NCBI RefSeq assembly: GCF_019890615.1
Contig: NZ_JAINVZ010000002.1
Span: 186,001-250,000 of the forward strand
DNA from: Streptantibioticus parmotrematis
GTDB taxonomy: Bacteria > Actinomycetota > Actinomycetes > Streptomycetales > Streptomycetaceae
Length of the DNA stretch: 64,000 nucleotides
Reading direction: 5' to 3'
Under the pieces are notes generated by a model, which made no database searches, was not told the DNA's origin, and was given only the letters and a program-made list of their open reading frames with translations. Both the position numbers and the translations under genes were made by a program. Of this stretch, positions 27,830-61,046 are shown piece after piece; the first letter of the stretch is position 1; each line of letters starts with the position of its first letter.

Positions 27830-27857
27830 TTTACCTGACATCTACGCGCGTTAAGCT
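27830..27857 (+). promoter_or_regulatory. BMP lipoprotein promoter with nucleoside-regulon palindrome
   Basis: A -35-like TTTACC (27830-27835) and a -10 TAAGCT (27852-27857) lie 16 bp apart. The palindrome copy TCTACGCGCGTTAA (27841-27854) fills the spacer and touches the -10, as expected for a repressor site. Its left half is perfect; the right half differs at two positions from the other copies. Confidence 0.72.
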
Positions 27858-27909
27858 GCCGCAGAACCAGCGCCGGACGGGGCGCTAGATGGATGAAGGG
27901 GTACCCCTC

Positions 27910-28962
27910 GTGCGCCGGGTAACCAGGTTTGCCGCCGCCGGTATAGCCACCGCGGCCCTTGCCCTCAGTGCCACCGCGTGTGGCGCCAGCTCGACCCAGA
28001 GCTCCGGCTCGTCCTCCTCCTCCGGGAAGGGCAGCCTCAAGGTCGGCATCGCCTATGACGTCGGTGGTCGTGGCGACCACTCGTTCAACGACTCCGCCGC
28101 GCGTGGCCTGGACAAGGCCACCAAGGAGTTCGGTGGAACGCCCAAGGAGCTGACCGCCAAGACGACCGACACCGACCAGGACCGCGAGCAGTACCTCGAC
28201 GACCTCGCGTCCAACGGCTACAACCCGGTCATCGCGGTCGGCTTCGCCTACGCCAACGCCCTCAAGGCCGAGGCCCCGAAGTTCCCCAAGACCACCTTCG
28301 CGATCGTCGACTCGGTGGTCCCGGGCAGCAACATCGACAGCATGAGCTTCGCCACCCCGGAGAGCTCCTACCTCGCCGGTGTCGCCGCGGCGCTGAAGTC
28401 CAAGACCGGCCACATCGGCTTCATCGGCGGTGTCGACAACGCGCTGATCAAGGGCTTCCAGGCGGGCTTCCAGCAGGGTGTCACCGACACCAAGCCGTCC
28501 GACAAGGTCACCGTGCAGTACCTGAGCACCGGTTCCGACCTGTCCGGCTTCTCCAGCCCCGACAAGGGCGCCAGCGCCGCGGCGGGCATGCTCTCCCAGG
28601 GCATCGACGTCGTCTACTCCGCGGCCGGCAGCTCCGGCACCGGCTCGATCGAGACCGTGGCGGCCAAGAAGGGCGCCTGGGCGATCGGCGTCGACTCCGA
28701 CCAGTACCAGGACCCGGCGCTGGCGAAGTACAAGGACTCCATCCTGACCTCCGCGGTCAAGAACGTGGACGTCGCCGTCTACGACCTCATCCAGAGCGTC
28801 CACAACGGCAAGCCGCTCACCGGCAACAACACCTACAACCTGGCCAACGGCGGTGTCAGCCTGGCCACCAGCGGCGGGTTCATCAAGGACATCCAGCCGC
28901 AGCTGGACGCGATCACCAAGAAGATCATCTCCGGTCAGATCAAGGTCAAGCAGACCCCCTGA
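27910..28962 (+). CDS. BMP-family nucleoside-binding lipoprotein
   Basis: Substrate-binding lipoprotein of a nucleoside ABC importer (BMP/Med family, like B. subtilis NupN or the streptococcal ribonucleoside transporter). Start GTG at 27910 follows GAAGGGG; a further upstream ATG at 27889 has no site. The signal peptide MRRVTRFAAAGIATAALAL ends at a lipobox ATAC, then a Ser/Gly linker. The mature part has KVGIAYDVGGRGDHSFNDSA, YLAGVAAAL, HIGFIGGVDNALIKGFQAGF and DVVYSAAGSSGTG. A hairpin (29063-29100) separates it from the ATPase, fitting higher expression of the binding protein. Confidence 0.93.
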   Translation: MRRVTRFAAAGIATAALALSATACGASSTQSSGSSSSSGKGSLKVGIAYDVGGRGDHSFNDSAARGLDKATKEFGGTPKELTAKTTDTDQDREQYLDDLASNGYNPVIAVGFAYANALKAEAPKFPKTTFAIVDSVVPGSNIDSMSFATPESSYLAGVAAALKSKTGHIGFIGGVDNALIKGFQAGFQQGVTDTKPSDKVTVQYLSTGSDLSGFSSPDKGASAAAGMLSQGIDVVYSAAGSSGTGSIETVAAKKGAWAIGVDSDQYQDPALAKYKDSILTSAVKNVDVAVYDLIQSVHNGKPLTGNNTYNLANGGVSLATSGGFIKDIQPQLDAITKKIISGQIKVKQTP

Positions 28963-29062
28963 CACGGACCACGGGTCTGACCCCGGGTCACCCGTGACCG
29001 GCACCGCGGCACACCGCCCGGTCCCGGCCGCGGGCCCCGGGCGGGCCGGCCGCCAGGCGTAC

Positions 29063-29100
29063 GGGGCCCGTCGGGAGAGGAACCACTCCCTCCGGGCCCC
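29063..29100 (+). terminator. Hairpin after the BMP lipoprotein gene
   Basis: Arms 29063-29077 and 29086-29100 pair over 8 plus 5 bp with a 2-nt mismatch (GGGGCCCG..GGGAG). Probably a terminator or partial terminator that lets the binding-protein gene be expressed above the downstream transporter genes. Confidence 0.65.
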
Positions 29101-29199
29101 TCGCGCCGCCGGTGGGAAAGCCCGTGAACGCCCCCTGAGAGCCCCCGGAAAGCACCGCCGCAACGCGTTGTCGCCCGGCGGCGGATTTCCCTCGGTACC

Positions 29200-29213
29200 G
29201 CTACGCGCGTAGA
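29200..29213. promoter_or_regulatory. Nucleoside-regulon palindrome upstream of ABC ATPase operon
   Basis: GCTACGCGCGTAGA contains the complete 12-bp palindrome CTACGCGCGTAG. It is framed by GGTACCGC (29194-29201) and GCGGTACC (29225-29232). It suggests a second regulated promoter for the ATPase-permease-cdd-deoA operon. Confidence 0.72.
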
Positions 29214-29393
29214 CACCCGTAGGCGCGGTACCTTCGCCCTTCGCCTTCCGCCCGACCAGGGCACGGTCATCCGGCCGGCGCGCCCACCGCCGCCTCCGCC
29301 GCCCACCGCCCGGCTCCTTCGCCCCGAGGAGAGTGCGCCATCAACGCGTCCAGTCCCCCTTCCGCCGCGAGTGCCCCCGCGAGCGCCCCCGCC

Positions 29394-30989
29394 GTGGAAC
29401 TCAAGGGAATCACCAAGCGGTTCCCCGGCGTCGTCGCCAACCACGACATCGACATCACGGTCCGCCGTGGCATCGTGCACGCCCTCGTCGGCGAGAACGG
29501 CGCCGGCAAGTCCACCCTGATGAAGATCCTCTACGGCATGCAGAAGCCGGACGAGGGCACCATCGCCGTCGACGGCGAGCAGGTCTCGTTCTCCAACCCG
29601 GGCGACGCCATCGTCCGGGGCATCGGCATGGTGCACCAGCACTTCATGCTCGCCGACAACCTCACGGTCCTGGAGAACGTGGTGCTCGGCAGCGAGAAGC
29701 TGTACGGCATCGGCACGAAGGCCCGCGCGAAGATCACCGAGATCTCCGACGCGTACGGGCTGAACGTGCGGCCCGACGTGCTGGTCGAGGACCTCGGCGT
29801 GGCCGACCGGCAGCGCGTGGAGATCCTCAAGGTCCTCTACCGCGGCGCCCGCACGCTCATCCTCGACGAGCCGACCGCGGTGCTGGTCCCGCAGGAGGTC
29901 GACGCGCTCTTCGACAACCTGCGGGAGCTGAAGGCCGAGGGCCTGACCGTCATCTTCATCTCGCACAAGCTGGGCGAGGTGCTCTCCGTCGCCGACGAGA
30001 TCACCGTCATCCGGCGCGGCACCACCGTCGGCACCGCCGACCCGAAGACCATCACCACCAAGCAGCTCGCCGAGCTGATGGTGGGCAGCGAACTGCCGTC
30101 GCCCGAGACCCGCGAGTCCACCGTCACCGACGTGCCGATGCTCCAGGTCGACGGCCTCAAGCTCACCGCCCCCGACCAGGACGGCGTCGAGCGCACCGTG
30201 CTGGACGACATCGCGCTGACCATCCACAAGGGCGAAGTCCTGGGCATCGCGGGTGTGGAGGGCAACGGCCAGGCCGAACTGGTCGAGGCCATCATGGGCA
30301 TGCGCGCCCCCGACGCGGGCGTGCTCACCCTCGACGGCCGGGACATCTCGCGCACGCCGACCCGCAAGCGGCGCGAGGACGGCATCGGTTACATCCCCGA
30401 GGACCGCCACCGGCACGGCCTGCTGCTGGAGGCCCCGCTGTGGGAGAACCGCATCCTCGGCCACGTCACCGAGAAGCCCAACAGCAAGGGCGCGCTGCTC
30501 GACCCGGCCGCCGCCCGCCGCGACACCGAGCGCATCGTCGCCGAGTACGACGTGCGCACCCCCGGCATCGACGTCACCGCCGCCTCGCTGTCCGGCGGCA
30601 ACCAGCAGAAGCTGATCGTCGGCCGCGAGATGAGCCACCAGCCCAAGCTGCTGATCGCCGCCCACCCCACGCGCGGCGTGGACGTCGGCGCGCAGGCGCA
30701 GATCTGGGACCAGATCCGCGAGGCCCGCCGCGAGGGCCTGGCGGTGCTGCTGATCTCCGCCGACCTCGACGAGCTGATCGGCCTGTCCGACTGCCTGCGG
30801 GTGATGTTCCGCGGGCGGCTGGTCGCCGACGCCGACCCCGCCACCATCACCCCCGAGGAACTGGGCTCCGCCATGACCGGCGCCAGCTCCGGCCACCTCG
30901 AACACGCCGCCGCGGGGGCCGTCACCGGCACCGCCCGGGACACCGCCGTCTCCGACACCGCCTCCGACACGGCCGGGGGAGAGGACTGA
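29394..30989 (+). CDS. Nucleoside ABC importer ATPase (two-domain)
   Basis: A fused tandem ATPase of the sugar/nucleoside class (RbsA/NupO-like). The first domain has Walker A GENGAGKST (about 33-41), a degenerate signature (GVADRQRVEILKVL) and Walker B LILDEPTAVLVPQE. The second has a degenerate Walker A (GVEGNGQAELVE), an intact LSGGNQQKLIVGREM and ...AHPTRGVDVGA. The conventional start is GTG 29394, which lacks a ribosome site. A strong GAGGAGAG lies 6 bases before an in-frame ATC at 29340, which would add 18 residues. Stop and permease start overlap (TGATG). Confidence 0.93.
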   Translation: MELKGITKRFPGVVANHDIDITVRRGIVHALVGENGAGKSTLMKILYGMQKPDEGTIAVDGEQVSFSNPGDAIVRGIGMVHQHFMLADNLTVLENVVLGSEKLYGIGTKARAKITEISDAYGLNVRPDVLVEDLGVADRQRVEILKVLYRGARTLILDEPTAVLVPQEVDALFDNLRELKAEGLTVIFISHKLGEVLSVADEITVIRRGTTVGTADPKTITTKQLAELMVGSELPSPETRESTVTDVPMLQVDGLKLTAPDQDGVERTVLDDIALTIHKGEVLGIAGVEGNGQAELVEAIMGMRAPDAGVLTLDGRDISRTPTRKRREDGIGYIPEDRHRHGLLLEAPLWENRILGHVTEKPNSKGALLDPAAARRDTERIVAEYDVRTPGIDVTAASLSGGNQQKLIVGREMSHQPKLLIAAHPTRGVDVGAQAQIWDQIREARREGLAVLLISADLDELIGLSDCLRVMFRGRLVADADPATITPEELGSAMTGASSGHLEHAAAGAVTGTARDTAVSDTASDTAGGED

Positions 30990-32122
30990 TGAAGAAGTTC
31001 GCCAAGATCGACAAGGACCGGCTGCTGCTCGGCATAGCGGCGCCCGTCCTCGCGGTGGTCGCCGCGCTGGTCGTCACCGCCCTGGTGCTGCTGGCCACCG
31101 GCAAGGAGCCGTTCAAGGCCTTCCAGATCATGGTCAGTTACGGCTTCAAGAGCGACAGCCAGGTCTTCATCCTCAACGAGGCCACCACCTACTACCTGGC
31201 CGGTCTCGCCGTCGCCATCGGGTTCCGGATGAACCTGTTCAACATCGGCGTCGACGGCCAGTACCGGATGGGCGCCTTCTTCGGCGCCGTGGTCGGCGGC
31301 ATGGTCACCCTGCCGTCGTTCCTGGAGATCCCGCTGATCATCGTCGTGTCGATGGTGGTCGCCGCCGCGTGGTCCGCCATCGCCGGTTTCCTGAAGGTCG
31401 GCCGTGGCGTGAGCGAGGTGATCGCCACGATCATGCTCAACTCGATCGCCACCGCGGTCATCTCCTACCTGCTCCAGCCGGGCAGGCTCGCGCACCTGAA
31501 CTCCAACACCAACAGCGTCTACACCACGATGCTGCCGAAGTCCGCGTGGTTCTTCACCATGACCACCAACCCGGCGGCCGGTCCCATCGAGGGCTTCATC
31601 GTGATCGCGGTGCTCGCCGGTGTCGCCTACTGGTTCGTGCTGTCGCGCACCCGCTTCGGCTTCGACCTGCGCACCGTCGGCCAGTCCGAGTCGGCCGCCG
31701 AGGCCAGCGGTGTCAACGTCAAGAAGATGATCGTCACCAGCATGATCATCTCCGGTGCGCTGGCCGGTCTGGTCGGCATGCCCGCGTTGCTCAACGAGGC
31801 GCACACCTACAGCGACGAGTTCCCCACCGGCATCGGCTTCATCGGCATCGCCGTCGCGCTGCTCGGCCGCAACCACCCGGTCGGCATCGGCATCGGCGCG
31901 CTGCTGTGGGCGTTCCTGGACCGCACCTCCAACTGGCTGGAGTTCAACGGCTACGACAAGGAGATCGTCGGCGTCATCCAGGGCGTCATCGTGCTGTGCG
32001 TCGTCATCGCCTACGAGGTCGTGCGCCGCTACGGCCTGGGCCGCCAGCAACGCAAGGTCGGCGAGGAACTTGCCGCCGCCGCGTCCCTGAAGACCGTTGA
32101 GAAGGCGGAGGTGACGGCGTGA
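30989..32122 (+). CDS. Nucleoside ABC importer permease 1
   Basis: A 377-residue permease of the branched-chain/ribose class (NupP/YufP-like). About nine TM helices; family segments are GLAVAIGFRMNLFNIGVDGQYRMGAFF, GRGVSEVIATIMLNSIA, GFDLRTVGQSESAAEASGV, and GIGFIGIAVALLGRNHPVG. The ATG overlaps the ATPase stop and follows GGGGGAGAGGAC. The stop overlaps the GTG of the second permease. Charged C-terminal tail. Confidence 0.94.
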   Translation: MKKFAKIDKDRLLLGIAAPVLAVVAALVVTALVLLATGKEPFKAFQIMVSYGFKSDSQVFILNEATTYYLAGLAVAIGFRMNLFNIGVDGQYRMGAFFGAVVGGMVTLPSFLEIPLIIVVSMVVAAAWSAIAGFLKVGRGVSEVIATIMLNSIATAVISYLLQPGRLAHLNSNTNSVYTTMLPKSAWFFTMTTNPAAGPIEGFIVIAVLAGVAYWFVLSRTRFGFDLRTVGQSESAAEASGVNVKKMIVTSMIISGALAGLVGMPALLNEAHTYSDEFPTGIGFIGIAVALLGRNHPVGIGIGALLWAFLDRTSNWLEFNGYDKEIVGVIQGVIVLCVVIAYEVVRRYGLGRQQRKVGEELAAAASLKTVEKAEVTA

Positions 32123-33399
32123 GCGCCACGACCACCGCGGCTCCGGCCGCCAAGACCGCGCCCGCGAAGGCGTCGCGCACCAAGCTGTCCACCCCCGTGA
32201 TCCTGCTCATCGTCGCGGGCGCGCTGATCGCCGTCGCGGCGGTGCGGGCCATCACCGGCGCCCGCGACGTCACCTCCTCCGGCCAGATCGGCGGCGCCCT
32301 GCAGATGGCCGTGCCCGTCGGCCTCGCCGGGCTCGCGGGCCTGTGGTCGGAACGCGCCGGCGTGGTCAACATCGGCCTCGAAGGCATGATGATCCTGGGC
32401 AGCTTCTTCGGCGCCTGGGCGGGCTGGCAGCACGGCCCGTGGATCGGCCTGCTCGCCGGTGTCATCGGCGGCGCGCTCGGCGGCCTGGTGCACGCCATCG
32501 CCACCGTCACCTTCGGCGTCGACCACATCGTCTCCGGTGTCGCCCTCACGCTGCTCGCACAGGGCGCCACCGAGTACCTCGCCAAGATCTGGTTCAACAC
32601 CGGCAAGGCCGCCACCCTCGGCGGCAACCCCAAGCAGTCCCCGCCGATCAACAGCGTCCCGTCGATCACCGTGCCGGGCCTGTCGCCGTGGCTGGCGCAC
32701 GTCGAGGCCCACCACTGGTTCCTCGTCTCCGACCTGGCCGGTGTGCTGGGCGGGCTGGTCACCAACCTGTCGGTGTTCACCGTGATCGCCGCGCTGCTGT
32801 TCGGCGCCACGTACTGGGTGCTGTGGCGCACGCCGTTCGGCCTGCGGCTGCGCTCCTGCGGCGAGGCGCCGGTGGCCGCCGAGTCGCTCGGCGTCGACGT
32901 CTACCGCTACAAGTACGCGGCCGTCATCCTGTCCGGCGGCCTGGCCGGCTTCGGCGGCGCGTTCCTGGCGATGGTCCCGGCGCACGCCTACAACGAGGGC
33001 CAGACCGGCGGCCGCGGCTACATCGGCCTCGCCGCGATGATCTTCGGCAACTGGCGGCCCGGCGGACTCGCCATGGGCGCGGGCCTGTTCGGCTACACCG
33101 ACAGCCTCCAGCTGCGCAACGGCGGCCCGGCCGCGCACGCGCTGCTGCTCCTGCTGGTGCTGCTGCTGGTCCTGATGGCGGTCTGGAAGTTCTCCCGTAA
33201 GAGCTACCGGCAGGCCGTGCTGAGCGCGGTCTTCGCCGCCCTGCTGCTGTTGTGGTTCCTCATGACGGACACCATCCCCTCCGAGTTCGTGAGCGCCACC
33301 CCGTACGTCGCCACGCTGCTGGTCCTCGCGCTGTCCGCGCAACGGCTGCGCATGCCCAAGGCGGACGGCAAGCCGTACCGGAAGGGCCAGGGCAAGTGA
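32119..33399 (+). CDS. Nucleoside ABC importer permease 2
   Basis: A 426-residue partner permease (NupQ/YufQ-like). A Lys/Ala-rich N-terminus is followed by about ten TM helices with LAGLWSERAGVVNIGLEGMM, FGVDHIVSGVALTLLAQGATEYL, RLRSCGEAPVAAESLGVDVYRYKY and GRGYIGLAAMIFGNWRPGG. A 4-bp GTGA overlap with permease 1 and another with cytidine deaminase show a tightly coupled operon, linking uptake directly to salvage. Confidence 0.94.
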   Translation: MSATTTAAPAAKTAPAKASRTKLSTPVILLIVAGALIAVAAVRAITGARDVTSSGQIGGALQMAVPVGLAGLAGLWSERAGVVNIGLEGMMILGSFFGAWAGWQHGPWIGLLAGVIGGALGGLVHAIATVTFGVDHIVSGVALTLLAQGATEYLAKIWFNTGKAATLGGNPKQSPPINSVPSITVPGLSPWLAHVEAHHWFLVSDLAGVLGGLVTNLSVFTVIAALLFGATYWVLWRTPFGLRLRSCGEAPVAAESLGVDVYRYKYAAVILSGGLAGFGGAFLAMVPAHAYNEGQTGGRGYIGLAAMIFGNWRPGGLAMGAGLFGYTDSLQLRNGGPAAHALLLLLVLLLVLMAVWKFSRKSYRQAVLSAVFAALLLLWFLMTDTIPSEFVSATPYVATLLVLALSAQRLRMPKADGKPYRKGQGK

Positions 33400-33821
33400 C
33401 GGCTCGCGACGCGACCGGCGCCGTCGACACCGGCGCCGTCGACTGGGCGGCCCTGCGGGAGCGGGCCCGGGAGATCATGACCCGGGCCTACGCCCCCTAC
33501 TCGGGCTTCCCCGTGGGCGCCGCCGCCCTGGTCGACGACGGCCGGACCGTGACCGGGTGCAACGTGGAGAACGCCGCCTACGGCGTCGCGCTGTGCGCCG
33601 AGTGCGGTCTGGTCTCCGCGCTGCACGCCTCTGGCGGCGGCAGGCTGACCGCGTTCACCTGCTGCGACCGCAACGGCGACGTGCTCATGCCGTGCGGGCG
33701 CTGCCGCCAGCTGCTGTGGGAGAACGGCGGCCCCGAGCTGCTGGTCGACACCGCCTCCGGCGTCCGCCCGATGCGCGAGCTGCTCCCGGACGCCTTCGGC
33801 CCCGAAGACCTCGACCGCTGA
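33396..33821 (+). CDS. cdd: Cytidine deaminase
   Basis: Deaminates cytidine and deoxycytidine to uridine and deoxyuridine. A 141-residue homotetrameric-type enzyme; zinc ligands Cys67 (with catalytic Glu69 in CAEC), Cys100 and Cys103 (PCGRC), plus the substrate motif GCNVENAAYG. GTG at 33396 overlaps the permease stop. The N-terminus carries a perfect 15-bp tandem duplication (33414-33428, 33429-33443) encoding TGAVD twice. Confidence 0.95.
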   Translation: MTARDATGAVDTGAVDWAALRERAREIMTRAYAPYSGFPVGAAALVDDGRTVTGCNVENAAYGVALCAECGLVSALHASGGGRLTAFTCCDRNGDVLMPCGRCRQLLWENGGPELLVDTASGVRPMRELLPDAFGPEDLDR

Positions 33822-33870
33822 GACCGGACGACCTCAACCGCTGAGACAGGTAAGGATCTGAACCGCATTC

Positions 33871-35148
33871 ATGGACGTCATCTCCGTCATCCGCACCAAG
33901 CGTGACCACGGCCGCCTCACCGACGAGCAGATCGACTGGGTGATCGACGCGTACACCCGTGGCGAGGTCGCCGACGAGCAGATGTCCGCGCTCGCCATGG
34001 CGATCCTGCTCAACGGCATGGACCGCGCCGAGATCGCCCGCTGGACGGCGGCGATGATCGCCTCCGGCGAGCGGATGGACTTCGCGTCGCTGCCCCGGCC
34101 CACCGCCGACAAGCACTCCACCGGCGGCGTCGGCGACAAGATCACGCTGCCGCTCGCGCCGCTGGTCGCCGCCTGCGGCGCGGCCGTTCCGCAGCTGTCC
34201 GGGCGCGGCCTCGGCCACACCGGCGGCACGCTGGACAAGCTGGAGTCGATCCCCGGCTGGCGGGCGCTGCTGTCCAACGACGAGATGATGGGCGTGCTGC
34301 GGGACGTCGGCGCGGTCATCTGCGCGGCGGGCGACGGGCTGGCCCCGGCCGACAAGAAGCTGTACGCGCTGCGCGACGTCACCGGCACGGTCGAGGCCAT
34401 CCCGCTGATCGCCTCGTCCATCATGTCCAAGAAGATCGCCGAGGGCACCGGTTCGCTGGTGCTGGACGTCAAGGTCGGCTCCGGCGCGTTCATGAAGAAC
34501 CTCGACGACGCGCGCGAACTCGCCTCCACCATGGTCGGGTTGGGCACCGACCACGGGGTGCGCACCGTCGCGCTGCTCACCGGCATGTCCACCCCGCTCG
34601 GCCTGACCGCGGGCAACGCGCTGGAGGTGCGCGAGTCCGTCGAGGTGCTGGCGGGCGGCGGCCCGGCCGACGTGGTCGAGCTGACCCTCGCGCTGGCCCG
34701 CGAGATGCTGGACGCGGCCGGCCTGAAGGACGCCGACCCCGAGAAGGCGCTGCGCGACGGCTCCGCGATGGACCACTGGCGGCGCATGATCGCGGCGCAG
34801 GGCGGCGACCCGGACGCGGCGCTGCCCGTCGCCCGCGAGCGGCACGTGGTGACCGCCTCCGCGACCGGCGTGCTCACCGGCCTGGACGCGTACGCGGTCG
34901 GCGTCGCCGCCTGGCGGCTCGGCGCGGGCCGCGCGCGCAAGGAGGACCCGGTGCAGGCGGGCGCGGGCGTCGAACTGCACGCCAAGCCCGGCGAGCAGGT
35001 CACCGCGGGCCAGCCGCTGATGACGCTGCACACCGACACGCCGGAGCGCTTCGCGTACGCGATCGAGGCGCTGGACGGAGGCGTGACGATCGAGGCGCCC
35101 GGAACGTCCTTCGAGGCGGACCCGATCGTGCTGGAACGTATCGCCTGA
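33871..35148 (+). CDS. deoA: Thymidine phosphorylase
   Basis: Phosphorolyses thymidine and deoxyuridine to base and deoxyribose-1-phosphate. The 425-residue glycosyltransferase-family-3 phosphorylase has MDVISVIRTKRDHGRLTDEQI, KHSTGGVGDKITLPLAPLVAA, the signature SGRGLGHTGGTLDKLESIPGW, SSIMSKKIAEGTGSLVLDVK and a C-terminal PYNP-type domain. It is the last gene of the transporter operon, 49 bp after cdd, before a hairpin. Its product joins the deoxyribose path through the mutase and deoC elsewhere in the window. Confidence 0.96.
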   Translation: MDVISVIRTKRDHGRLTDEQIDWVIDAYTRGEVADEQMSALAMAILLNGMDRAEIARWTAAMIASGERMDFASLPRPTADKHSTGGVGDKITLPLAPLVAACGAAVPQLSGRGLGHTGGTLDKLESIPGWRALLSNDEMMGVLRDVGAVICAAGDGLAPADKKLYALRDVTGTVEAIPLIASSIMSKKIAEGTGSLVLDVKVGSGAFMKNLDDARELASTMVGLGTDHGVRTVALLTGMSTPLGLTAGNALEVRESVEVLAGGGPADVVELTLALAREMLDAAGLKDADPEKALRDGSAMDHWRRMIAAQGGDPDAALPVARERHVVTASATGVLTGLDAYAVGVAAWRLGAGRARKEDPVQAGAGVELHAKPGEQVTAGQPLMTLHTDTPERFAYAIEALDGGVTIEAPGTSFEADPIVLERIA

Positions 35149-39067: not shown

Positions 39068-39090
39068 TCTACGCGCGTAGGGGCTACCAT
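39068..39090 (+). promoter_or_regulatory. Adenosine deaminase promoter with nucleoside-regulon palindrome
   Basis: TCTACGCGCGTAGG (39068-39081) lies directly upstream of a -10 TACCAT (39085-39090). The ATG at 39097 is 7 bases after the -10, so the message is probably leaderless and the operator blocks the -35/-10 spacer. Confidence 0.75.
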
Positions 39091-39096
39091 CGGCCG

Positions 39097-40410
39097 ATGC
39101 AGAGCGAGAACCGTCACGCCGGTGAGACCGGCACGCCGCACACCGCGGCCGAGACCGCCCCGCGCGCCGGCGCCGGGGCCGCCGTACGAGCCGCCGACGC
39201 CGCCCGCCCGGGCACGGCGCTCGTCACCCCCGCGACCGCCACCGCCGAGCGCATCGTGCGCGCTCCCAAGGTGCTGCTCCACGACCACCTCGACGGCGGC
39301 CTGCGCCCCTCGACGGTGATCGAACTCGCCGACGCGGTCGGCTACCGCGACCTGCCGGAGACCGAACCGGGCAAGCTCGCCGAGTGGTTCCGCGAGGCCG
39401 CGGACTCCCCGGCCAAGGCGCAGGGCGACGACGGCGGCAAGGGCCTGGAACGCTACCTGGAGACCTTCGCCCACACCTGCGCCGTGATGCAGACCCGTGA
39501 CGCGCTCTTCCGGGTCGCCGCCGAGTGCGCCGAGGACCTGGCGGCCGACGGCGTGGTCTACGCCGAGATCCGCTACGCCCCCGAGCAGCACCTGGAGGCG
39601 GGCCTGTCCCTCGAAGAGGTCGTCGAGGCCGTCAACGAGGGCTTCCGGGAGGGCGAGCGCCGCGCGCTGGCCGCCGGCAACCGCATCCGGGTCGGCGCGC
39701 TGCTGACCGCGATGCGCCACGCGGCCCGTTCGCTGGAGATCGCCGAACTCGCCAACCGCTACCGCGACCTGGGCGTCGTCGGCTTCGACATCGCGGGCGC
39801 GGAGGCCGGGTTCCCTCCCACCCGCCACCTCGACGCCTTCGAGTACCTCAAGCGGGAGAACAACCACTTCACCATCCACGCCGGTGAGGCGTTCGGCCTG
39901 CCGTCGATCTGGCAGGCGCTCCAGTGGTGCGGCGCGGACCGGCTGGGTCACGGCGTGCGGCTGATCGACGACATCCACGTCGCCGAGGACGGCACGGTCA
40001 AGCTGGGACGCCTCGCCTCCTACGTGCGCGACAAGCGCGTCCCGCTGGAGCTGTGCCCGACCTCCAACCTCCAGACGGGCGCGGCCCCTTCGTACGAGCG
40101 GCACCCGATCGGCCTGCTGCGCGCGCTGCACTTCCGGGTCACCGTCAACACCGACAACCGGCTGATGAGCGCGACCACCATGAGCCGCGAGTTCGGCCAT
40201 CTGGTGGACGCCTTCGGCTACACGCTGGACGACCTGGAATGGATCACCGTCAATTCGATGAAGTCCGCCTTCATTCCTTTTGATGAACGTCTGGCCATGA
40301 TCAACGACGTCATCAAGCCGGGTTACGCCGAGTTGAAGGCCGAATGGCTGTTCCAGCACGCGGCCGGATCATCGGGCGTGGCCAGCGGTTCCGCCACGCC
40401 CGGCGCGTAA
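39097..40410 (+). CDS. add: Adenosine deaminase
   Basis: Deaminates adenosine and deoxyadenosine to inosine and deoxyinosine. The 437-residue protein has an Ala-rich N-terminal extension of about 55 residues, then the zinc HxH in [49 protein letters not shown], and [17 protein letters not shown]. Strong operator and probable leaderless start. The extension looks unlike E. coli ADA, and a downstream start is possible, but the TACCAT box supports 39097. Confidence 0.94.
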
Positions 40411-47396: not shown

Positions 47397-48266
47397 TCAC
47401 ACCCCGATCGGGTGCCAGACCGTCTTCGTCTCCAGGAACGCCAGCAGCCGCTCGGTGCCCGGCTCCGCCGTCCAGTCCTCGGCGGTCACCGCGGGACGCA
47501 GCACCCGCTTGAGGTTCTCCGCCGCCGCGACCTCCAGCTCACGCGCCAGGTCGGCGTCCGCGCCGGTCAGGTCGATCGCGTTGACGTCCGCGTGCGCGGC
47601 CAGGTGCGGCGCGATCTCCGACGCCTTGCCGGACAGCACGTTCACCACGCCACCGGGCACGTCCGAGGTGGCCAGCACCTCCGCCAGCGACAGCGCGGGC
47701 AGCGGCGCCTCGTACGACGTCACCACGACCGCGGTGTTGCCGGTCGCGATCACCGGCGCCAGCACGGAGATCAGGCCCAGGAACGAGGAGTCCTGCGGCG
47801 CCAGCACCGTGACCACGCCGGTCGGCTCGGTGGTCGACAGGTTGAAGTACGGTCCGGCCACCGGGTTCGCGGCCCCCGCGATCTGCCCGATCTTGTCCGT
47901 CCAGCCCGCGTACCAGACCCAGCGGTCGATGCCTGAGTCCACGACCGCCGCCGCCTTGGACTTCGACAGCCCCTCCGCGTCGGCCACCTCGCGGACGAAC
48001 TGCTCGCGGCGGCCCTCCAGCATCTCCGCGACGCGGTAGAGGACCTGGCCGCGGTTGTACGCGGTCGCCCCCGACCAGCCGCCGAACGCCTTGCGCGCGG
48101 CCACCACCGCGTCCCGCGCGTCCTTGCGCGAGGCCAGCGGCGCGTTGGCGAGCCAGTTGCCCTTGGCGTCCGACACCTCGTACACCCGCCCGCTCTCGGA
48201 CCGGGGGAACTTGCCCCCGACGAACAACTTGTAGGTCTTGAGGACGTTCAAGCGCGACTCAGACAT
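47397..48266 (-). CDS. Short aldehyde dehydrogenase-like protein without catalytic residues
   Basis: A 289-residue ALDH-fold protein that covers only the NAD-binding domain: KLFVGGKFPRSESGRVY, FGGWSGATAYNRGQVLYRVAEML, YAGWTDKIGQIAG, VVTVLAPQDSSFLGLIS. The catalytic Glu (LELGGK) and Cys loop of ALDH are absent, and the C-terminus stops at about residue 289. It is coupled to the full ALDH by an 8-bp overlap. Similar short ALDHs next to full ones are known to me in Streptomyces, so this is probably a conserved partner subunit rather than a fresh truncation. Confidence 0.83.
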   Translation of the reverse strand: MSESRLNVLKTYKLFVGGKFPRSESGRVYEVSDAKGNWLANAPLASRKDARDAVVAARKAFGGWSGATAYNRGQVLYRVAEMLEGRREQFVREVADAEGLSKSKAAAVVDSGIDRWVWYAGWTDKIGQIAGAANPVAGPYFNLSTTEPTGVVTVLAPQDSSFLGLISVLAPVIATGNTAVVVTSYEAPLPALSLAEVLATSDVPGGVVNVLSGKASEIAPHLAAHADVNAIDLTGADADLARELEVAAAENLKRVLRPAVTAEDWTAEPGTERLLAFLETKTVWHPIGV

Positions 48267-49722
48267 CGAGGTAGGCCTCCAGACCGTGCCGGCCGCCCTC
48301 GCGGCCGAAGCCCGACTCCTTGTAGCCGCCGAACGGCGAGGTCGGGTCGAACTTGTTGAACGTGTTGGCCCACACCACGCCCGCGCGCAGCTTGTCGGCC
48401 ATCCACAGGATGCGCGAGCCCTTCTCGGTCCAGATGCCGGCCGACAGCCCGTACGGCGTGTTGTTGGCCTTCTCCACCGCCTCCGCGGGCGTACGGAAGG
48501 TCAGCACCGACAGCACCGGGCCGAAGATCTCCTCGCGGGCGATCCGGTGCGCCTGGGTGACGCCGGTGAACAGCGTCGGGGCGAACCAGTAACCGGAGGA
48601 CGGCAGTTCGCAGGCCGGGGCCCAGCGCTCGGCGCCCTCCGCCTCGCCCGCCTCGGCCAGCGCGGTGATCCGGGCCAGCTGCTCGGCCGAGTTGATGGCG
48701 CCAACGTCGGTGTTCTTGTCCAGCGGATCACCCACCCGCAGCGTCGCCATCCGCCGCTTGAGCGCGTCCAGCACCTGGTCGGCGACCGACTCCTGCACCA
48801 GCAGGCGCGAGCCCGCGCAGCACACGTGGCCCTGGTTGAAGAAGATGCCGTTGACGATGCCCTCGACGGCCTGGTCGACCGGGGCGTCGTCGAAGACGAT
48901 GTTGGCCGCCTTGCCGCCGAGTTCGAGGGTCAGCTTCTTGCGGGTGCCCGCGACGGTGCGCGCGATCGCCTTGCCGACCTCCGTCGAGCCGGTGAACGCC
49001 ACCTTGTTCACGTCCGGGTGGGCCACCAGCTCCGCGCCGGTCGAGCCGTCACCGGTGAGGATGTTGACGACGCCCTTGGGCAGGCCCGCCTGGCGGCAGA
49101 TGTCGGCGAAGAACAGCGCGGACAGCGGCGTGGTCTCGGCGGGTTTGAGCACGACCGTGTTGCCGCAGGCCAGCGCCGGGGCGACCTTCCACGCCAGCAT
49201 CAGCAGCGGGAAGTTCCACGGGATGACCTGGGCCGCGACGCCCAGCGGCTTCGGGTCCGTGCCGCTCGTGCCGTTCATCGGGCTCCGCCCGAGGGCCGCG
49301 TGGGAGAGCTTGTCGGCCCAGCCCGCGTAGTAGAAGAAGTGCGCGGCGACCAACGGGAGGTCGGCGTCGCGCGACTCGCGGATCGGCTTGCCGTTGTCCA
49401 GCGACTCCAGCACGGCCAGTTCGCGCGAGCGCTCCTGGACGATCCGGGCGATGCGGAACAGGTACTTGGCGCGCTCGGCGCCCGGCAGCGCGGACCACTT
49501 CTCGAACGCCTTGCGGGCGGCGCCCACGGCGGCGTCCACGTCGGCGGCACCGGCCTGCGCGACCTCGGAGAGCACCTCCTCGGAGGAGGGGCTGACGGTC
49601 TTGAAGACCTTGCCGTCCGCCGCCTCGCGGAACTCGCCGTCGACGAACAGCCCGTAGGACGGCGCGATCTCGACGACCGACCGCGACTCGGGGGCGGGCG
49701 CGTAGCTGAAGGGGGAGGTCAT
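48259..49722 (-). CDS. Aldehyde dehydrogenase
   Basis: A 487-residue NAD(P)-dependent aldehyde dehydrogenase. The NAD-binding motif is FTGSTEVGKAIA; the catalytic Glu lies in LTLELGGKAANIV and the Cys in FFNQGHVCCAGSRL; NTFNKFDPTSPFGGYKESGFGRE closes it. Lying 5 bp after deoC, it probably oxidises the acetaldehyde released by DeoC. ATG at 49722 follows a GGGGGAGG-like run on the plus-strand complement only weakly. Substrate is inference from operon logic. Confidence 0.9.
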   Translation of the reverse strand: MTSPFSYAPAPESRSVVEIAPSYGLFVDGEFREAADGKVFKTVSPSSEEVLSEVAQAGAADVDAAVGAARKAFEKWSALPGAERAKYLFRIARIVQERSRELAVLESLDNGKPIRESRDADLPLVAAHFFYYAGWADKLSHAALGRSPMNGTSGTDPKPLGVAAQVIPWNFPLLMLAWKVAPALACGNTVVLKPAETTPLSALFFADICRQAGLPKGVVNILTGDGSTGAELVAHPDVNKVAFTGSTEVGKAIARTVAGTRKKLTLELGGKAANIVFDDAPVDQAVEGIVNGIFFNQGHVCCAGSRLLVQESVADQVLDALKRRMATLRVGDPLDKNTDVGAINSAEQLARITALAEAGEAEGAERWAPACELPSSGYWFAPTLFTGVTQAHRIAREEIFGPVLSVLTFRTPAEAVEKANNTPYGLSAGIWTEKGSRILWMADKLRAGVVWANTFNKFDPTSPFGGYKESGFGREGGRHGLEAYLDV

Positions 49723-49727
49723 CGTGA

Positions 49728-50735
49728 TCAGTCCACCGTCACGTAGTCGGGACCGGAGTACCGGCCGGTGCTCAGCTTCTGACGCTGCATCAGCAGGTCG
49801 TTCAGCAGGCTGGAGGCGCCGAAGCGGAACCACTCGGGGGTCAGCCACTCCTCGCCGAGCGTCTCGTTCACCATCACCAGGTACTTGATCGCGTCCTTGG
49901 AGGTGCGGATGCCGCCTGCGGGCTTGACGCCCACCTGCACGCCGGTCGCCGCGCGGAAGTCGCGGACCGCCTCCAGCATCAGCAGGGTGCCCGGCGGCGT
50001 CGCGTTGACGGCGACCTTGCCGGTCGAGGTCTTGATGAAGTCGGCGCCCGCGAGCATCGCCAGCCACGAGGCGCGGCGGATGTTGTCGTACGTGGACAGC
50101 TCGCCGTTCTCGAAGATCACCTTGAGGTGGGCGGCGCTGCCGTCCTCCCTCGCGCACGCCTGCTTGACCGCCTTGATCTCTTCGAAGACGGACAGGTAGC
50201 GGCCGGCCAGGAAGGCACCGCGGTCGATGACCATGTCGATCTCGTCCGCCCCCGCGGCGACCGCGTCCGCGGTGTCGGCCAGCTTGACGGGCAGCGCGGC
50301 CCGGCCGGCCGGGAAGGCGGTGGCGACCGAGGCGACGTGGACGCCGGAACCGGCGAGCGCGGCCTTGGCGGTCTCCACCATGTCCGGGTACACGCAGATC
50401 GCGGCGACCCTCGGGGTGGTGCGGTCGGTCGGGTCGGGGCTGACGCCCTTGGCGCACAACGCCCGGACCTTGCCGGGGGTGTCGGCGCCTTCCAAGGTCG
50501 TCAGGTCGATCATCGAGATGGCCAGATCGATGGCGTAGGCCTTGGCCGTCGTCTTGATCGAACGCGTACCGAGCATCGCGGCCCGGCCTTCGAGGCCGAC
50601 CGCGTCGACACCGGGCAGCCCGTGCAGGAACCGGCGCAGCGCGGCATCGGAGGCGGTCACGTCCGCCATGGACGCCAGCCGCGCGGCGGCGTCGGGGCCG
50701 TGGGCGGGGACCGTCTGGGGGATGGACTGGGGCAT
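49728..50735 (-). CDS. deoC: Deoxyribose-phosphate aldolase
   Basis: Cleaves 2-deoxyribose-5-phosphate to glyceraldehyde-3-phosphate and acetaldehyde. The 335-residue DERA TIM barrel has the Schiff-base lysine in ADFIKTSTGKVAVNATPPG and the second lysine in VGVKPAGGIRTSKDAI, plus VAAICVYP and DEIDMVIDRGAFL. ATG 50735 follows GGGTGG; a GTG at 50744 is possible. First gene of the deoC-ALDH-short ALDH operon, under a palindromic operator at 50754. Confidence 0.95.
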   Translation of the reverse strand: MPQSIPQTVPAHGPDAAARLASMADVTASDAALRRFLHGLPGVDAVGLEGRAAMLGTRSIKTTAKAYAIDLAISMIDLTTLEGADTPGKVRALCAKGVSPDPTDRTTPRVAAICVYPDMVETAKAALAGSGVHVASVATAFPAGRAALPVKLADTADAVAAGADEIDMVIDRGAFLAGRYLSVFEEIKAVKQACAREDGSAAHLKVIFENGELSTYDNIRRASWLAMLAGADFIKTSTGKVAVNATPPGTLLMLEAVRDFRAATGVQVGVKPAGGIRTSKDAIKYLVMVNETLGEEWLTPEWFRFGASSLLNDLLMQRQKLSTGRYSGPDYVTVD

Positions 50736-50747
50736 GGTCACCACCCG

Positions 50748-50767
50748 AGCATATCTACGCGCGTAGC
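50748..50767 (-). promoter_or_regulatory. deoC promoter with nucleoside-regulon palindrome
   Basis: On the minus strand, GCTACGCGCGTAGA (50767 to 50754) is followed immediately by the -10 TATGCT (50753 to 50748). The site therefore sits between -35 and -10. The start codon follows within 4-13 bases of the -10, so the message is nearly leaderless. Confidence 0.75.
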
Positions 50768-56233: not shown

Positions 56234-56340
56234 GTGTCCCTCGACCCCCAGATCGACGCCCTGCTCGAGAAGCTGGCTGAAGGGGGCGAACCCGCGCCGG
56301 AGAGCCGGACGGTGGAGGAGAACCGCGCCCTCGATGGTGC
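56234..56340 (+). pseudogene. N-terminal fragment of an alpha/beta-hydrolase (esterase)
   Basis: GTG at 56234 with AGGAAGG before it begins MSLDPQIDALLEKLAEGGEP and PAPESRTVEENRAL, the typical N-terminus of acetyl-hydrolase/esterases in actinobacteria. From about 56335 the sequence loses family similarity, and neither phase continues the fold. The gene was probably cut by a deletion. The rest of 56341-56698 shows no gene. Confidence 0.55.
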
Positions 56341-56698: not shown

Positions 56699-57376
56699 AT
56701 GACCAGCCAGTACCCGTCCCCCTCGCCGAACCGGCGCTCCGGCGCCGACGGCTCCGCTTACGCGGACCGCGCCTTCCGTTCGCCCATGGGCGTCGTCGGC
56801 GGCGTGCTGCTGCTCGCGCTGGGGCTGTGGCTGGTGATCGACGCCATGCTGCACGGGAGCGGGCGCACGCCCTGGCTGGCGCTGGCCGTCCTGGTGCTGG
56901 GCGCGCCGCTCGTCTACGCCTTCACGCTGCGCCCGGTGGTCTACGCGGGCGAGGCCCGGATGCTGGTGCGCAACCCGTTCCGGACCATCACGATCCCGTG
57001 GGCCGCCGTGGAGGCCGTGCGGTCCGGCTACACCAGTGAGGTGCTGGCCGGGGGCAGGAAGTTCCAGCTGTGGTCGGTGCCGGTCTCGATGCGGGCCCGC
57101 AAGCGCGCCAGCCGGCAGGCCATGCGGGCGGCGGCGGGCGTGGAGACCGGCAGCGCGCCGTCCCGCGGTCCGGCCTTCGGCCGCGGCGGCACCACGGCCA
57201 CGGACGGCCCGCCCCGCGCCCAGTCCGACCAGGTCATCGACCAGCTCAACGATCTCGCCGAGCGCAACGCGCCCAAGGACGCCGCCAAGGGCGAGGTGGC
57301 GGTGCGCTGGGCCTACGAGGTCATCGCCCCCGCCGTCGTCGGCGCGATCGCGACCGTCGTCCTCGCCGCGAGCTGA
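56699..57376 (+). CDS. PH-like domain membrane protein
   Basis: A 225-residue protein: two TM helices near 35-55 and 60-80 followed by a bacterial PH-like (PF10756-type) fold (RPVVYAGEARMLVRNPFRTITIPWAAVEAVRSGYTSEVLAGGRKFQLW region; key cores VYAGEARMLVRNPF and IPWAAVEAV), a basic linker, and a C-terminal TM (about 205-222). ATG 56699. Such proteins are membrane-anchored and of unknown role. I recall a like protein next to the phosphomannomutase gene in S. coelicolor. Confidence 0.78.
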   Translation: MTSQYPSPSPNRRSGADGSAYADRAFRSPMGVVGGVLLLALGLWLVIDAMLHGSGRTPWLALAVLVLGAPLVYAFTLRPVVYAGEARMLVRNPFRTITIPWAAVEAVRSGYTSEVLAGGRKFQLWSVPVSMRARKRASRQAMRAAAGVETGSAPSRGPAFGRGGTTATDGPPRAQSDQVIDQLNDLAERNAPKDAAKGEVAVRWAYEVIAPAVVGAIATVVLAAS

Positions 57377-57424
57377 GCCCCGGCCCGCCCGCCCGTCCGC
57401 CCGTTCCCCTCGAAGGACCCCCGC

Positions 57425-58261
57425 GTGCGCCCTGGCGACCCAGCAGAGAACCCGTCCCCGTCCGAGCTGTCGGAACTGCGGGCGGACTGCTCCCGTTGCT
57501 TCGGGCTGTGCTGCGTCGCGCTGCCGTTCGCGCGGTCGGCGGACTTCGCGATCGACAAGGCCGCGGGAACGCCGTGCCCGAACCTGGCGGACGACTTCCG
57601 GTGCGGGACGCACGCCACCCTGCGCCGCGACGGCTTCACCGGGTGCACCGTCTTCGACTGCTTCGGGGCCGGGCAGAAGGTCTCGCAGGTGACGTTCGAG
57701 GGGCGCGACTGGCGCGGCGACGCGAAGCGGGCCCGGCGGATGTCCGAGGTCTTCCCGGTGATGCGGCACCTGCACGAGCTGCTGCGGTACCTCGCGGAAG
57801 CGCTGGTCCTGCCCGCCGCCGCGCCCGTCCACGACGAACTGGCGGCGGCCCGCGAGCGCGTCGAGCAGCTGACCCGGGGAACGCCGGAGGAGGTCGTCGC
57901 GGTGGACGTGGCCGCGGTGCGCGCCGAGGTCAACGCCTCGTTGCTGCGCGCGAGCGACCTGGCCCGCGCGGGCGTCCCGGGGCGCACGAAGGACAGGAGG
58001 GGCGCCGACCTGTTCGCGGCCCGCCTGAGGGGAGCGTCCCTGCGGGGAGCGAGCCTGCGCGGTGCCTGCCTCGTCGCGGCCGACCTGCGCGGAGCGGACC
58101 TGCGCGCGGCCGACCTCACCGGAGCCGACCTGCGCGACGCGCGCCTGCACGGCGCCGACCTCACCGGCACCCTGTTCCTCACCCAGCCCCAACTGACCGC
58201 CGCGCAGGGCGACATGACGACGAAGTTGCCGGAAACGGTGAGCAGGCCCACCCACTGGTGA
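57425..58261 (+). CDS. Cys-rich pentapeptide-repeat protein
   Basis: A 278-residue protein. The N-terminus (about 20-85) is Cys-rich ([36 protein letters not shown]), like the YkgJ-type zinc/iron-binding motif CxxCxxxCC. A helical middle follows. From about 190 there are pentapeptide repeats A(D/N)LxG ([48 protein letters not shown] core) that form a right-handed quadrilateral helix. GTG 57425 follows AAGGA. Function unknown; the pairing of both domains is characteristic of Streptomyces proteins. Confidence 0.82.
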
Positions 58262-58283
58262 GCCTGCCCGTACCGCTGTCCGG

Positions 58284-59954
58284 TCAGATCCCGGCCGCTG
58301 CCGCGAAGTCCTTCTTCAGGGCCGCAAGCGTCTCCCGGGCCGTCGCCCGCGCCGCGTCGAGCCGCTCAGGACCGGCCACCGGGACGACGGTCTCCAGGTA
58401 GCACTTGAGCTTGGGCTCGGTGCCGCTGGGCCGGACGATGACGCGTGCCGAGGCGACCTCGCCGTCGCCGGAGAGGTGGTAGCGCAGGCCGTCCGTCGGC
58501 GGCAGCTGGTCCGTGCCCCGCGCGAGGTCCTCCGCCGAGGCGACGTCGAGACCCGCGAGCCGCACCGGCGGACGCTCCCGCAGCCGCGCCATCGCCCCCG
58601 CGATCAGACCGAGGTCGGCGACCCGCACCGACAGCTGGTCGGTGGCGTGCAGCCCGTGTTCCAGCGCGAGCTCGTCCAGCAGGGACGTGAGCGTGCGGCC
58701 CTGCGCCTTCAGGCCCGCCGCGAGTTCGGCCACGGCCAGCGCCGCCGTCACGCCGTCCTTGTCCCGTACGCCCTCGGGGTCGACGCAGTAGCCCAGCGCC
58801 TCCTCGTAGCCGTAGCGCAGCCCCGGCACCCGGGCGATCCACTTGAAGCCGGTGAGCGTGTCCTCGTACGGGAGTCCGGCCGCCGCGGCGATCCGCGACA
58901 GCAGGGAGGACGAGACGATGGACGCCGCCAGCGTGCCCTTGGCGCCGGAGCGCACGAGGTGCGCCGCGAGCAGCGCGCCGACCTCGTCGCCGCGCAGCAT
59001 CCGCCAGCCGCCGTCCGCCGAGGCGTCGGGCACGGCCACGGCGCAGCGGTCGGCGTCCGGGTCGTTGGCGATCACGAGGTCCGGCGAGACGCGGCGGGCG
59101 TGCGCGAACGCGAGGTCCATCGCGCCCGGCTCCTCCGGGTTCGGGAACGCCACCGTGGGGAAGTCCGGGTCGGGCTCGGCCTGCTCGGGAACGACCGACG
59201 GCGTGCCGAAGCCCGCGCGTTCGAACGCGGCGACCAGCACGTCGCGCCCGACCCCGTGCATCGGCGTGTAGACCACCGACACCTCGCGCGGTCCGTCCTC
59301 CGTCACCACGGACGCGGTGCGCGCCAGGTAGGCGTCGGTGATCTCCTCGCCCAGCACCTGCCAGCCGCCGTCCGCCAGCGGCACGTCCGCGAGCGCCTCG
59401 ACGGCGGCGATCTCGGCGGCGATCCCCGCGTCGGCGGGCGGCACGATCTGCGAGCCGTCGCCCAGGTAGACCTTGTAGCCGTTGTCGCGCGGCGGATTGT
59501 GGCTGGCGGTCACCATGACGCCCGCGACCGCGCCCAGGTGGCGGATGGCGAAGGCCAGCACCGGCGTGGGCAGCGGCGACGGCAGGACCGCGGCGCGCAG
59601 GCCCGCCCCCGTCATCACGGCCGCCGTGTCCCGGGCGAAGTCGTACGACTTGTGGCGCGCGTCGTAGCCGACGACGACCAGCCCGTCGCCCTGCCCGCGC
59701 CCCTCGAGGTACGCGGCGAGACCGGCCGCCGCGCGGATGACGACGGCGCGGTTCATCCGCATCGGGCCCGCGCCCAGCTCACCGCGCAGCCCCGCGGTGC
59801 CGAACTGCAGCGTCCCGGCGAAGCGCTCGGCCAGCTCGGCCGCGGCCGCCTCGGTGCCCGCCTCCAGCAGTTCGGCCAGCTCGGCCCGGGTCCGGGGGTC
59901 GGGGTCCTCGGCCAGCCAGGCGCGTGCCTGCGCCAACGTGTCGTCGTTGACCAT
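58284..59954 (-). CDS. Phosphosugar mutase (phosphomannomutase/phosphopentomutase-like)
   Basis: A 556-residue alpha-D-phosphohexomutase superfamily enzyme. Phosphoserine loop TASHNPPRDNGYKVYL, metal loop NDPDADRCAVAV, sugar loop GYEEALGYC, and phosphate-binding RPSGTEPKLKCYLE. It follows pnp in one operon, so conversion of (deoxy)ribose-1-phosphate to the 5-phosphate (phosphopentomutase role) is likely, although the family also uses hexose phosphates. ATG at 59954. Confidence 0.9.
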   Translation of the reverse strand: MVNDDTLAQARAWLAEDPDPRTRAELAELLEAGTEAAAAELAERFAGTLQFGTAGLRGELGAGPMRMNRAVVIRAAAGLAAYLEGRGQGDGLVVVGYDARHKSYDFARDTAAVMTGAGLRAAVLPSPLPTPVLAFAIRHLGAVAGVMVTASHNPPRDNGYKVYLGDGSQIVPPADAGIAAEIAAVEALADVPLADGGWQVLGEEITDAYLARTASVVTEDGPREVSVVYTPMHGVGRDVLVAAFERAGFGTPSVVPEQAEPDPDFPTVAFPNPEEPGAMDLAFAHARRVSPDLVIANDPDADRCAVAVPDASADGGWRMLRGDEVGALLAAHLVRSGAKGTLAASIVSSSLLSRIAAAAGLPYEDTLTGFKWIARVPGLRYGYEEALGYCVDPEGVRDKDGVTAALAVAELAAGLKAQGRTLTSLLDELALEHGLHATDQLSVRVADLGLIAGAMARLRERPPVRLAGLDVASAEDLARGTDQLPPTDGLRYHLSGDGEVASARVIVRPSGTEPKLKCYLETVVPVAGPERLDAARATARETLAALKKDFAAAAGI

Positions 59955-59986
59955 CTACGGCTCCTAGTCGCGTCGGTGCGAGTGCG

Positions 59987-60802
59987 TCACATACGGCCGA
60001 GGACCTGGGCCAGCAGGCTGCCCATCCGGGTCGCCGACTCGCGGCCGGCCTCCAGGACCTCTTCGTGGTTGAGCGGCTCGCCCGTCATGCCGGCGGCGAG
60101 GTTGGTCACCAGGGAGATACCCAGCACCTCGGCGCCCGCCTCACGCGCGGCGATCGCCTCCAGCGTGGTGGACATGCCGACCAGGTCACCGCCGATCGCG
60201 CGGACCATGCCGATCTCGGCCGGGGTCTCGTAGTGCGGGCCGGGCAGCTGGACGTAGACGCCCTCGGTCAGCGTCGGGTCGACCTCCTGGCACAGCGCGC
60301 GCAGCCGCGGCGAGTACAGGTCGGTCAGGTCGACGAAGTGGGCGCCCTGGATCGGCGAGGTCGCCGTCATGTTGATGTGGTCGCTGATCAGGACCGCCTC
60401 GCCCGGACGGAAGGTGGGACGCAGCCCGCCGCACCCGTTGGTCAGCACGATGGTCTTGCACCCGGCGGCGACGGCGGTACGGACACCGTGCACCACGGTG
60501 GCGACACCCTTGCCCTCGTACAGGTGGTTGCGGCCCAGGAAGACCAGGGCGCGCTTCTCGCCGATCCGCACGGAACGGATCTTGCCCGCGTGCCCCTCGA
60601 CGGCGGGCGGCGGGAAGCCGGGCAGCTCGGTGACGGCGATCTCGTGCTCGGGCTCACCCAGCGCGTCGGCGGCCGGGACCCAGCCCGACCCCATGACCAG
60701 CGCGACGTCGTGGCTCTCCGCACCGGTCAGCTCGCGCAGGCGTGCGGCGGCGGTCTCGGCGGCGGCGTAGGGGCTCTCGGATGCGGATGCGGTTGCGTTC
60801 AC
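59987..60802 (-). CDS. pnp: Purine nucleoside phosphorylase
   Basis: Phosphorolyses inosine and guanosine (and deoxy forms) to base and ribose-1-phosphate. The 271-residue trimeric-type enzyme has [79 protein letters not shown] and [23 protein letters not shown] at 60802 is 7 bases after a TACCCT -10, so the mRNA is probably leaderless. The operator lies at 60827-60840. Confidence 0.95.
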
Positions 60803-61046
60803 GCGGATGAGGGTAACCGAGGTTTGCCTACGCGCGTAGACGTCTCCTGGACGGGGTCGGAAGAATTGTCCGATCGAACAGTTGACAGTGATCGTTTTGC
60901 GTAGATCACACAGCTTTCGCCCCGCGCCACCCGTAGATCAGGGACAGGTCAGCCGGTTTCCGGACCGAGGTTCATCGAAGCGGCGGAGAGCGGCAGAAGC
61001 ATCACAGAGCACGGGAAGCGGAGCAGCACTGTGGGGGACGGCAGAA
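60803..61046. other. pnp upstream region
   Basis: This stretch holds the pnp promoter and operator, then about 200 bp without a gene. AT-rich steps GTTGACAGTGATCGTTTTGC (60881-60900) may hold another promoter. The 141-bp inverted repeat begins at 61047. Confidence 0.5.
60810..60840 (-). promoter_or_regulatory. pnp promoter with nucleoside-regulon palindrome
   Basis: On the minus strand TCTACGCGCGTAGG (60840 to 60827) lies 11 bp upstream of a -10 TACCCT (60815 to 60810), with the GTG start 7 bases below. The 12-bp core CTACGCGCGTAG is perfect. Confidence 0.75.

Follow-up and report, generated by a model that had tools for sequence, protein, structure and literature searches.

A putative common operator at promoters for nucleoside uptake and breakdown in Streptomycetaceae

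Introduction

In E. coli, the genes of the CytR/DeoR regulon are kept under shared repression, which is relieved by nucleosides or deoxyribose-5-phosphate. For Streptomyces, two comparisons come from designs that were not aimed at nucleosides: in RNA-seq of a protein-producing S. lividans strain, SCO4917 (pnp), SCO4914 (deoC) and SCO4901 (add) went up together, with log2 values of 3.70, 3.24 and 2.16 and TPM rising from 5 to 64, 7 to 69 and 11 to 49, respectively (PMC6302529, Table 3), and in a protein-level comparison S. coelicolor had more SCO4901 than S. lividans, and more of three putative nucleases, at all times (PMC7244524). In the same S. lividans table, other catabolic genes are also up, and the importer genes are not listed (PMC6302529). 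The authors of the protein comparison tie the abundance of SCO4901 and the nucleases to recycling after cell lysis (PMC7244524). The SCO4914 protein is less abundant in an argR mutant (PMC3293853); thus, other regulators may act on these genes. A glucose-response study lists SCO4920 in one of its tables as a regulator of the DeoR family (PMC4848846).

The locus described here carries a short palindrome ahead of its nucleoside import and breakdown genes. Such a switch would most likely let one protein turn the whole set on together. A search of mostly open-access literature returned no description of this operator or regulon.

Nucleoside genes and palindromes of the window

The window, that is, the whole 64-kb stretch of DNA that was analysed, had been described in an earlier note as carrying five near-perfect palindromes at nucleoside gene promoters. 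All five were recovered at the positions given there (Table 1). The names that had been given to the genes behind them, namely BMP, ABC ATPase, adenosine deaminase, DeoC and purine nucleoside phosphorylase, were borne out by Pfam and NCBIfam. The genes from the ABC ATPase to deoA are probably read as one transcript, and the phospho-sugar mutase after pnp may serve as a phosphopentomutase.

Table 1. Genes, operator copies and -10-like boxes of the window (mismatches counted against TCTACGCGCGTAGA)
Feature	Position	Strand	Remarks
Operator copy, BMP lipoprotein promoter	27841..27854	+	2 mismatches
-10-like box TAAGCT, BMP	27852-27857	+	right operator arm given up to the box
BMP/PnrA-like substrate-binding lipoprotein	27889..28962	+	PF02608, 1.4e-57
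Operator copy, nucleoside ABC transporter operon	29200..29213	+	1 mismatch
Candidate -10 TACCTT, ABC operon	29229-29234	+	by eye
ABC ATPase, two permeases, cytidine deaminase (cdd), pyrimidine nucleoside phosphorylase (deoA)	29394..35148	+	Pfam for all five
Operator copy, add	39068..39081	+	1 mismatch
-10-like TACCAT, add	39085-39090	+	probable leaderless ATG at 39097
Adenosine deaminase (add)	39097..40410	+	PF00962; NCBIfam equivalog above cut-off
Aldehyde dehydrogenase, after deoC	48259..49746	-	NCBIfam matches below cut-offs
Deoxyribose-phosphate aldolase (deoC)	49728..50744	-	TIGR00126 above cut-off
-10-like TATGCT, deoC	50753-50748	-	probable leaderless GTG at 50741
Operator copy, deoC	50754..50767	-	1 mismatch
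Phospho-sugar mutase, after pnp	58284..59954	-	best NCBIfam matches glmM/pgm-type, all below cut-off
Purine nucleoside phosphorylase (pnp)	59987..60802	-	TIGR01698 above cut-off
-10-like TACCCT, pnp	60815-60810	-	probable leaderless GTG at 60802
Operator copy, pnp	60827..60840	-	1 mismatch
DeoR-family regulator (AgaR/GlpR-like)	63333..64000, runs on to 64295 beyond the window	+	PF08220, PF00455

A loose search of the window for the palindrome, allowing up to three mismatches, stayed near chance, with 6 matches against 3.44 expected, a number that 13 of 100 shuffles reached; the window alone is, therefore, little proof. Across the source genome as a whole, 18 matches to the 14-mer were counted when up to two mismatches were allowed, and its reversed control gave 7. 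Exact copies of the core CTACGCGCGTAG number 5 against 0, with four of the five inside the window, and copies of the degenerate core CTAYRCGYRTAG 6 against 1. An exact core that adjoins a LuxR-type gene in this genome (L001) was set aside as chance or lineage-specific, and a one-mismatch core upstream of rpoB was taken as chance.

Place of the site in the promoter

It had been proposed that in four of the five promoters the site sits at or just upstream of the -10, and this held. A TANNNT box overlaps the BMP core by 2 bases and starts 1 bp downstream of the core at deoC, 4 bp at add and 12 bp at pnp. For the ABC operon, a candidate -10 picked by eye lies 16 bp downstream of the 12-bp core.

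In leaderless Streptomyces promoters, the TANNNT box stands 12-13 nt before the start codon. The count took in distinct promoters in which a core was accepted and the protein start was recognised: a box 12-13 nt ahead of an in-frame start was present at add in 48 of 48, at pnp in 24 of 24 and at deoC in all six. At add, 47 of the 48 promoters have the box 4 bp from the core; at pnp, 20 of the 24 have it at 12 bp and the others at 10-13 bp; and at deoC, all six have it at 1 bp. At BMP, the first bases of the box replace the right arm of the operator in every one of the 81 copies.

Different parts of the core promoter are, thus, covered in different genes, which fits steric blocking better than activation. 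An activator at the site is quite unlikely: the -35 boxes, which by eye are poor in some of these promoters, would speak for it, but the distance from site to -10 depends on the gene (overlap, 1, 4 or about 12 bp), and a site lying over the -10 or the spacer is better suited to blocking than to recruitment. A dual regulator may stand in place of a plain repressor. That the palindrome is instead a sigma-factor promoter element, or a structural element unrelated to nucleosides, is very improbable. Its location in the core promoter at add, pnp, deoC and BMP would suit such an element, but its spacing to the -10 varies, it is symmetric, its sites are few per genome, and its targets are mostly of one metabolic theme; the many unrelated promoters with one fixed spacing that would go with a promoter element were not seen in the loci examined.

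Conservation in Streptomycetaceae and beyond

A motif search across relatives of the source genome, the check that had been suggested for the palindrome, found it enriched over the reversed control and conserved at nucleoside genes. In 41 Streptomycetaceae genomes, the exact core occurs 117 times against 23 for the control and is present in 40 of them. The single family genome without it, G011, has near-copies at its deoC and pnp. Of the 30 exact-core loci listed, pnp accounts for 14, add for 7, the ABC operon for 4 and deoC for 1, and the other 4 lie elsewhere. An equal density upstream of unrelated genes, which would have spoken against the idea of one control, was thus not seen, as 26 of these 30 belong to the four nucleoside promoters.

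Upstream regions were counted in 80 named loci, nine family clusters and the window, using only loci with enough upstream DNA. At BMP, all 83 family loci show the form CTACGCGCGTTA, and the core with no or one mismatch stands ahead of the ABC operon in 77/84, of deoC in 9/10 and of pnp in 9/10. By the same measure, other genes of these loci carry next to none: cdd 0/87, perm1 0/86, LysR 0/64, MFS 0/65, lpdA 0/10, DeoR 0/10, aldh 0/10 and pmm 1/10. The deoA gene has a core with one or two mismatches in only 37 of 86 upstream regions, mostly as CTATGCGCGTAG, and the deoA of the window lacks it. A second adenosine deaminase in G032 has the exact core inside its first codons (L144:1494-1512).

That five neighbouring promoters carry the palindrome by chance is scarcely conceivable. 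The loose window search, near chance level as it was, is what could be said for it; against it stand the excess over the reversed control in the 41 genomes and the gene-by-gene conservation. The sites are related by descent, and so the species counted are not independent of one another; the source genus is represented by two genomes in the sample. The counts support the palindrome as a putative operator conserved in Streptomycetaceae and common to promoters for the uptake and breakdown of nucleosides.

Outside the family, the exact core was found in 5 of 137 genomes of the class, and 20 nucleoside clusters held no core with up to one mismatch. A substitute palindrome was sought in these 20 clusters, and none was common to all. 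In four of them, a palindrome around GGACGCGATAGCGTCC stands ahead of the nucleoside ABC operon (L196:5025, L199:5203, L205:5250 and, with one mismatch, L195:5062); it may be where another regulator of these nucleoside genes binds.

Further members of the set

The earlier note had placed the whole set within 33 kb. One palindrome common to these promoters and conserved with them stands, whereas its confinement to this stretch does not, as copies lie on other contigs too. In the source genome, sites with one mismatch to the 14-mer occur on other contigs upstream of an NCS2 (Xan_ur_permease) transporter and ahead of a carbon-nitrogen hydrolase gene. The genes after the hydrolase encode a class III aminotransferase, a dihydropyrimidinase that scores above the cut-off of TIGR02033, and an NCS1 permease. 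The NCS2 permease gene is found at threshold in 36 of the 41 family genomes, and a near-copy with one core mismatch is upstream of it in all 30 listed family loci. The pyrimidine operon is found at threshold in 33 of 41; its one-core-mismatch site is present in 20 of the 30 listed loci and absent in 10. Shuffled upstream sequences, as a control for both sets of sites, gave at most 0.2%. MarR genes lie near the NCS2 permease and near the pyrimidine operon in part of the loci; in no fewer than 16 of 30 loci, the permease has a MarR gene nearby that is 75-94% identical to the NCS2-adjacent one of the source genome (L258:4979-5413, L297-L323).

Secreted proteins are also among the genes with sites. 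In the source genome, one-mismatch sites on other contigs stand upstream of an ExeM/NucH-like endonuclease (below the NCBIfam cut-off) and of a secreted protein of unassigned function; a similar secreted protein with exact-core sites was recognised by eye in the translations of two more genomes. A two-mismatch site lies 57 bp upstream of a PLD-like protein (L327:2304-2317), which is also secreted and may be an extracellular nuclease or phospholipase. The ExeM and PLD sites are known from the source genome.

De novo purine synthesis genes are not main targets of the operator. Exact-core sites were observed upstream of purN-purH in four genomes of two genera (G015, G035, G040 and G016; L108, L145, L146 and L147) and upstream of purS in one (L137). 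No site lies near purN in the source genome, and G027, which belongs to one of the two genera, has no purN site among its listed sites. These sites are perhaps a lineage-specific addition of de novo purine genes.

Proposed regulon

The palindrome is probably the operator of one Streptomycetaceae repressor that controls a regulon for scavenging the components of nucleic acids. In this regulon, the BMP and ABC proteins would take up nucleosides, which would be deaminated by add and, via the ABC operon, by cdd, and split by phosphorolysis through pnp and deoA; deoC with the aldehyde dehydrogenase would break down deoxyribose-5-phosphate. The NCS2 purine-type base permease and the reductive pyrimidine-degradation operon would also belong to it, joined in some genomes by secreted nucleases and purN-purH. 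The joint rise of pnp, deoC and add in the S. lividans table and the greater abundance of SCO4901 together with nucleases in S. coelicolor agree with such a regulon. The repressor would block RNA polymerase at the core promoter and be released as a metabolite derived from nucleosides builds up; deoxyribose-5-phosphate, a nucleoside or a purine may play this part. Its operators would stay at least one base away from perfect TCTACGCGCGTAGA, perhaps to let the binding be relieved.

If this is true, Streptomyces has a single switch for the uptake and recycling of nucleosides and bases, for example after partial lysis of the colony, and the operator is a concrete bait for finding the regulator.

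Candidates for the regulator

The DeoR-family protein encoded at 63333, the ortholog of SCO4920, had been named as a possible repressor, and this part of the earlier note fared poorly; as the repressor, sensing a sugar phosphate such as deoxyribose-5-phosphate, it now seems unlikely. It has the DeoR HTH and DeoRC domains and is encoded near the targets, about 2.5 kb from pnp in the window and beside the pnp-lpdA region in nine other mapped family clusters. In each of the 41 family genomes, its best match shares 86-100% identity over 222 aa, and its HTH is near-invariant, with the first 60 residues identical in 35 of 36 family sequences. However, its best NCBIfam matches are AgaR and GlpR, with DeoR weak and all below cut-off. 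An operator in the regulator's own promoter is usual for such regulators, although not obligatory; the leaderless promoter of this gene has no palindrome, and 0 of 10 upstream regions hold the core with up to two mismatches. Furthermore, five genomes outside the family (G202, G232, G193, G237 and G263) have a DeoR protein 67-73% identical over 222 aa, with the same SEVTVRRD helix and with the nucleoside cluster present, but the exact core is found 0 times genome-wide in them, and their 20-kb loci hold no core with up to one mismatch.

The promoter of the DeoR gene is itself conserved over about 70 bp up to a probable leaderless GTG (window 63243-63335; L162-L191, L232-L237). Its conserved elements, GAACAACTTC, GGTGCAAAC, CTGAAAGCAGACGG and GTTACTGTC, are unlike the palindrome and are possibly regulatory sites of its own.

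A LacI protein, the other kind that had been suggested, is a possible but doubtful regulator. LacI-family operators are usually even palindromes, 16-22 nt long, that have a CG pair at their centre (PMC4052901). The site described here is an even palindrome with a central CG in most classes, its informative positions being the 12 of the core and weak flanks. The CG is not kept in the pyrimidine operon, where the centre reads TG, CA or GG in the 20 sites, and this is what makes a LacI protein doubtful. The LysR gene near add was dropped, as no site lies upstream of it at up to two mismatches (0/64).

The missing perfect operator

The sequences examined contain 215 distinct sites with no more than one mismatch to TCTACGCGCGTAGA, and a perfect copy is not among them. 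The outer-base frequencies predict 26 perfect sites among the 150 distinct exact-core sites, against 0 observed. The perfect 14-mer was found in 0 of 150 family genomes, and the reversed control likewise gave 0.

Each class of promoter has its usual flaw. At add, it is the last base (50 of 50 distinct sites under the stricter anchor), and the last base is also changed in 24 of 29 pnp copies. The flaw is at position 5 in deoA, at the fourth base from the end in 29 of 30 NCS2 copies, at the palindrome centre in the pyrimidine operon and at the first base in all 12 deoC copies. Two or more flaws are carried by 33 of 70 ABC copies, 7 of 12 deoC copies and all 38 BMP copies. In pnp and NCS2, copies that lack the usual flaw have another: four pnp copies with a final A have a change in the core instead (TCTACGCGCATAGA in G002, G005 and G018, and TCTACGCGCGTATA in G004), and in the sole NCS2 copy that lacks the change typical of its class, it is the centre that differs (G011).

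Selection against a site that binds too tightly would be the simplest reading of the missing perfect operator, and chance or shared ancestry may also account for it. A preference of the protein for asymmetric sites was considered as the cause and found insufficient, because some promoter classes have their flaw in the core and would be left unexplained. A bolder proposal, which we put forward tentatively, joins these observations to the regulon. An undescribed, family-wide repressor might govern the recovery of nucleic acids, from secreted nucleases through import to the degradation of the base ring, while selection would hold every one of its operators at least one step below the ideal palindrome. 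The flaw typical of a class, if repaired, would be replaced by another, and the perfect, too-tight site would never arise. With the missing perfect operator, nature offers a test of whether evolution sets a ceiling on how tightly a repressor binds its sites.

Comparison with known regulons

The operator is common to nucleoside transporter, deaminase, phosphorylase and deoC genes. As in the CytR/DeoR regulon of E. coli, the genes for nucleoside transport, cdd, deoC, deoA and purine nucleoside phosphorylase are grouped. The operator, however, differs from the CytR and DeoR sites, and the Streptomycetaceae set adds the pyrimidine ring-degradation operon and the NCS2 base permease. A purine-type permease with a site and, in a few genomes, purN-purH with one recall the PurR regulons, although de novo purine genes are not general members here. 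XdhR of S. coelicolor is likewise a Streptomyces regulator of purine salvage, which answers (p)ppGpp; its described targets, xdhABC and act genes, are unlike the present set (PMC6627660). Among Gram-positive bacteria, a dedicated regulator of nucleoside transport is likewise known in Bacillus thuringiensis, namely NupR, which belongs to the GntR/HutC family (PMC9430930).
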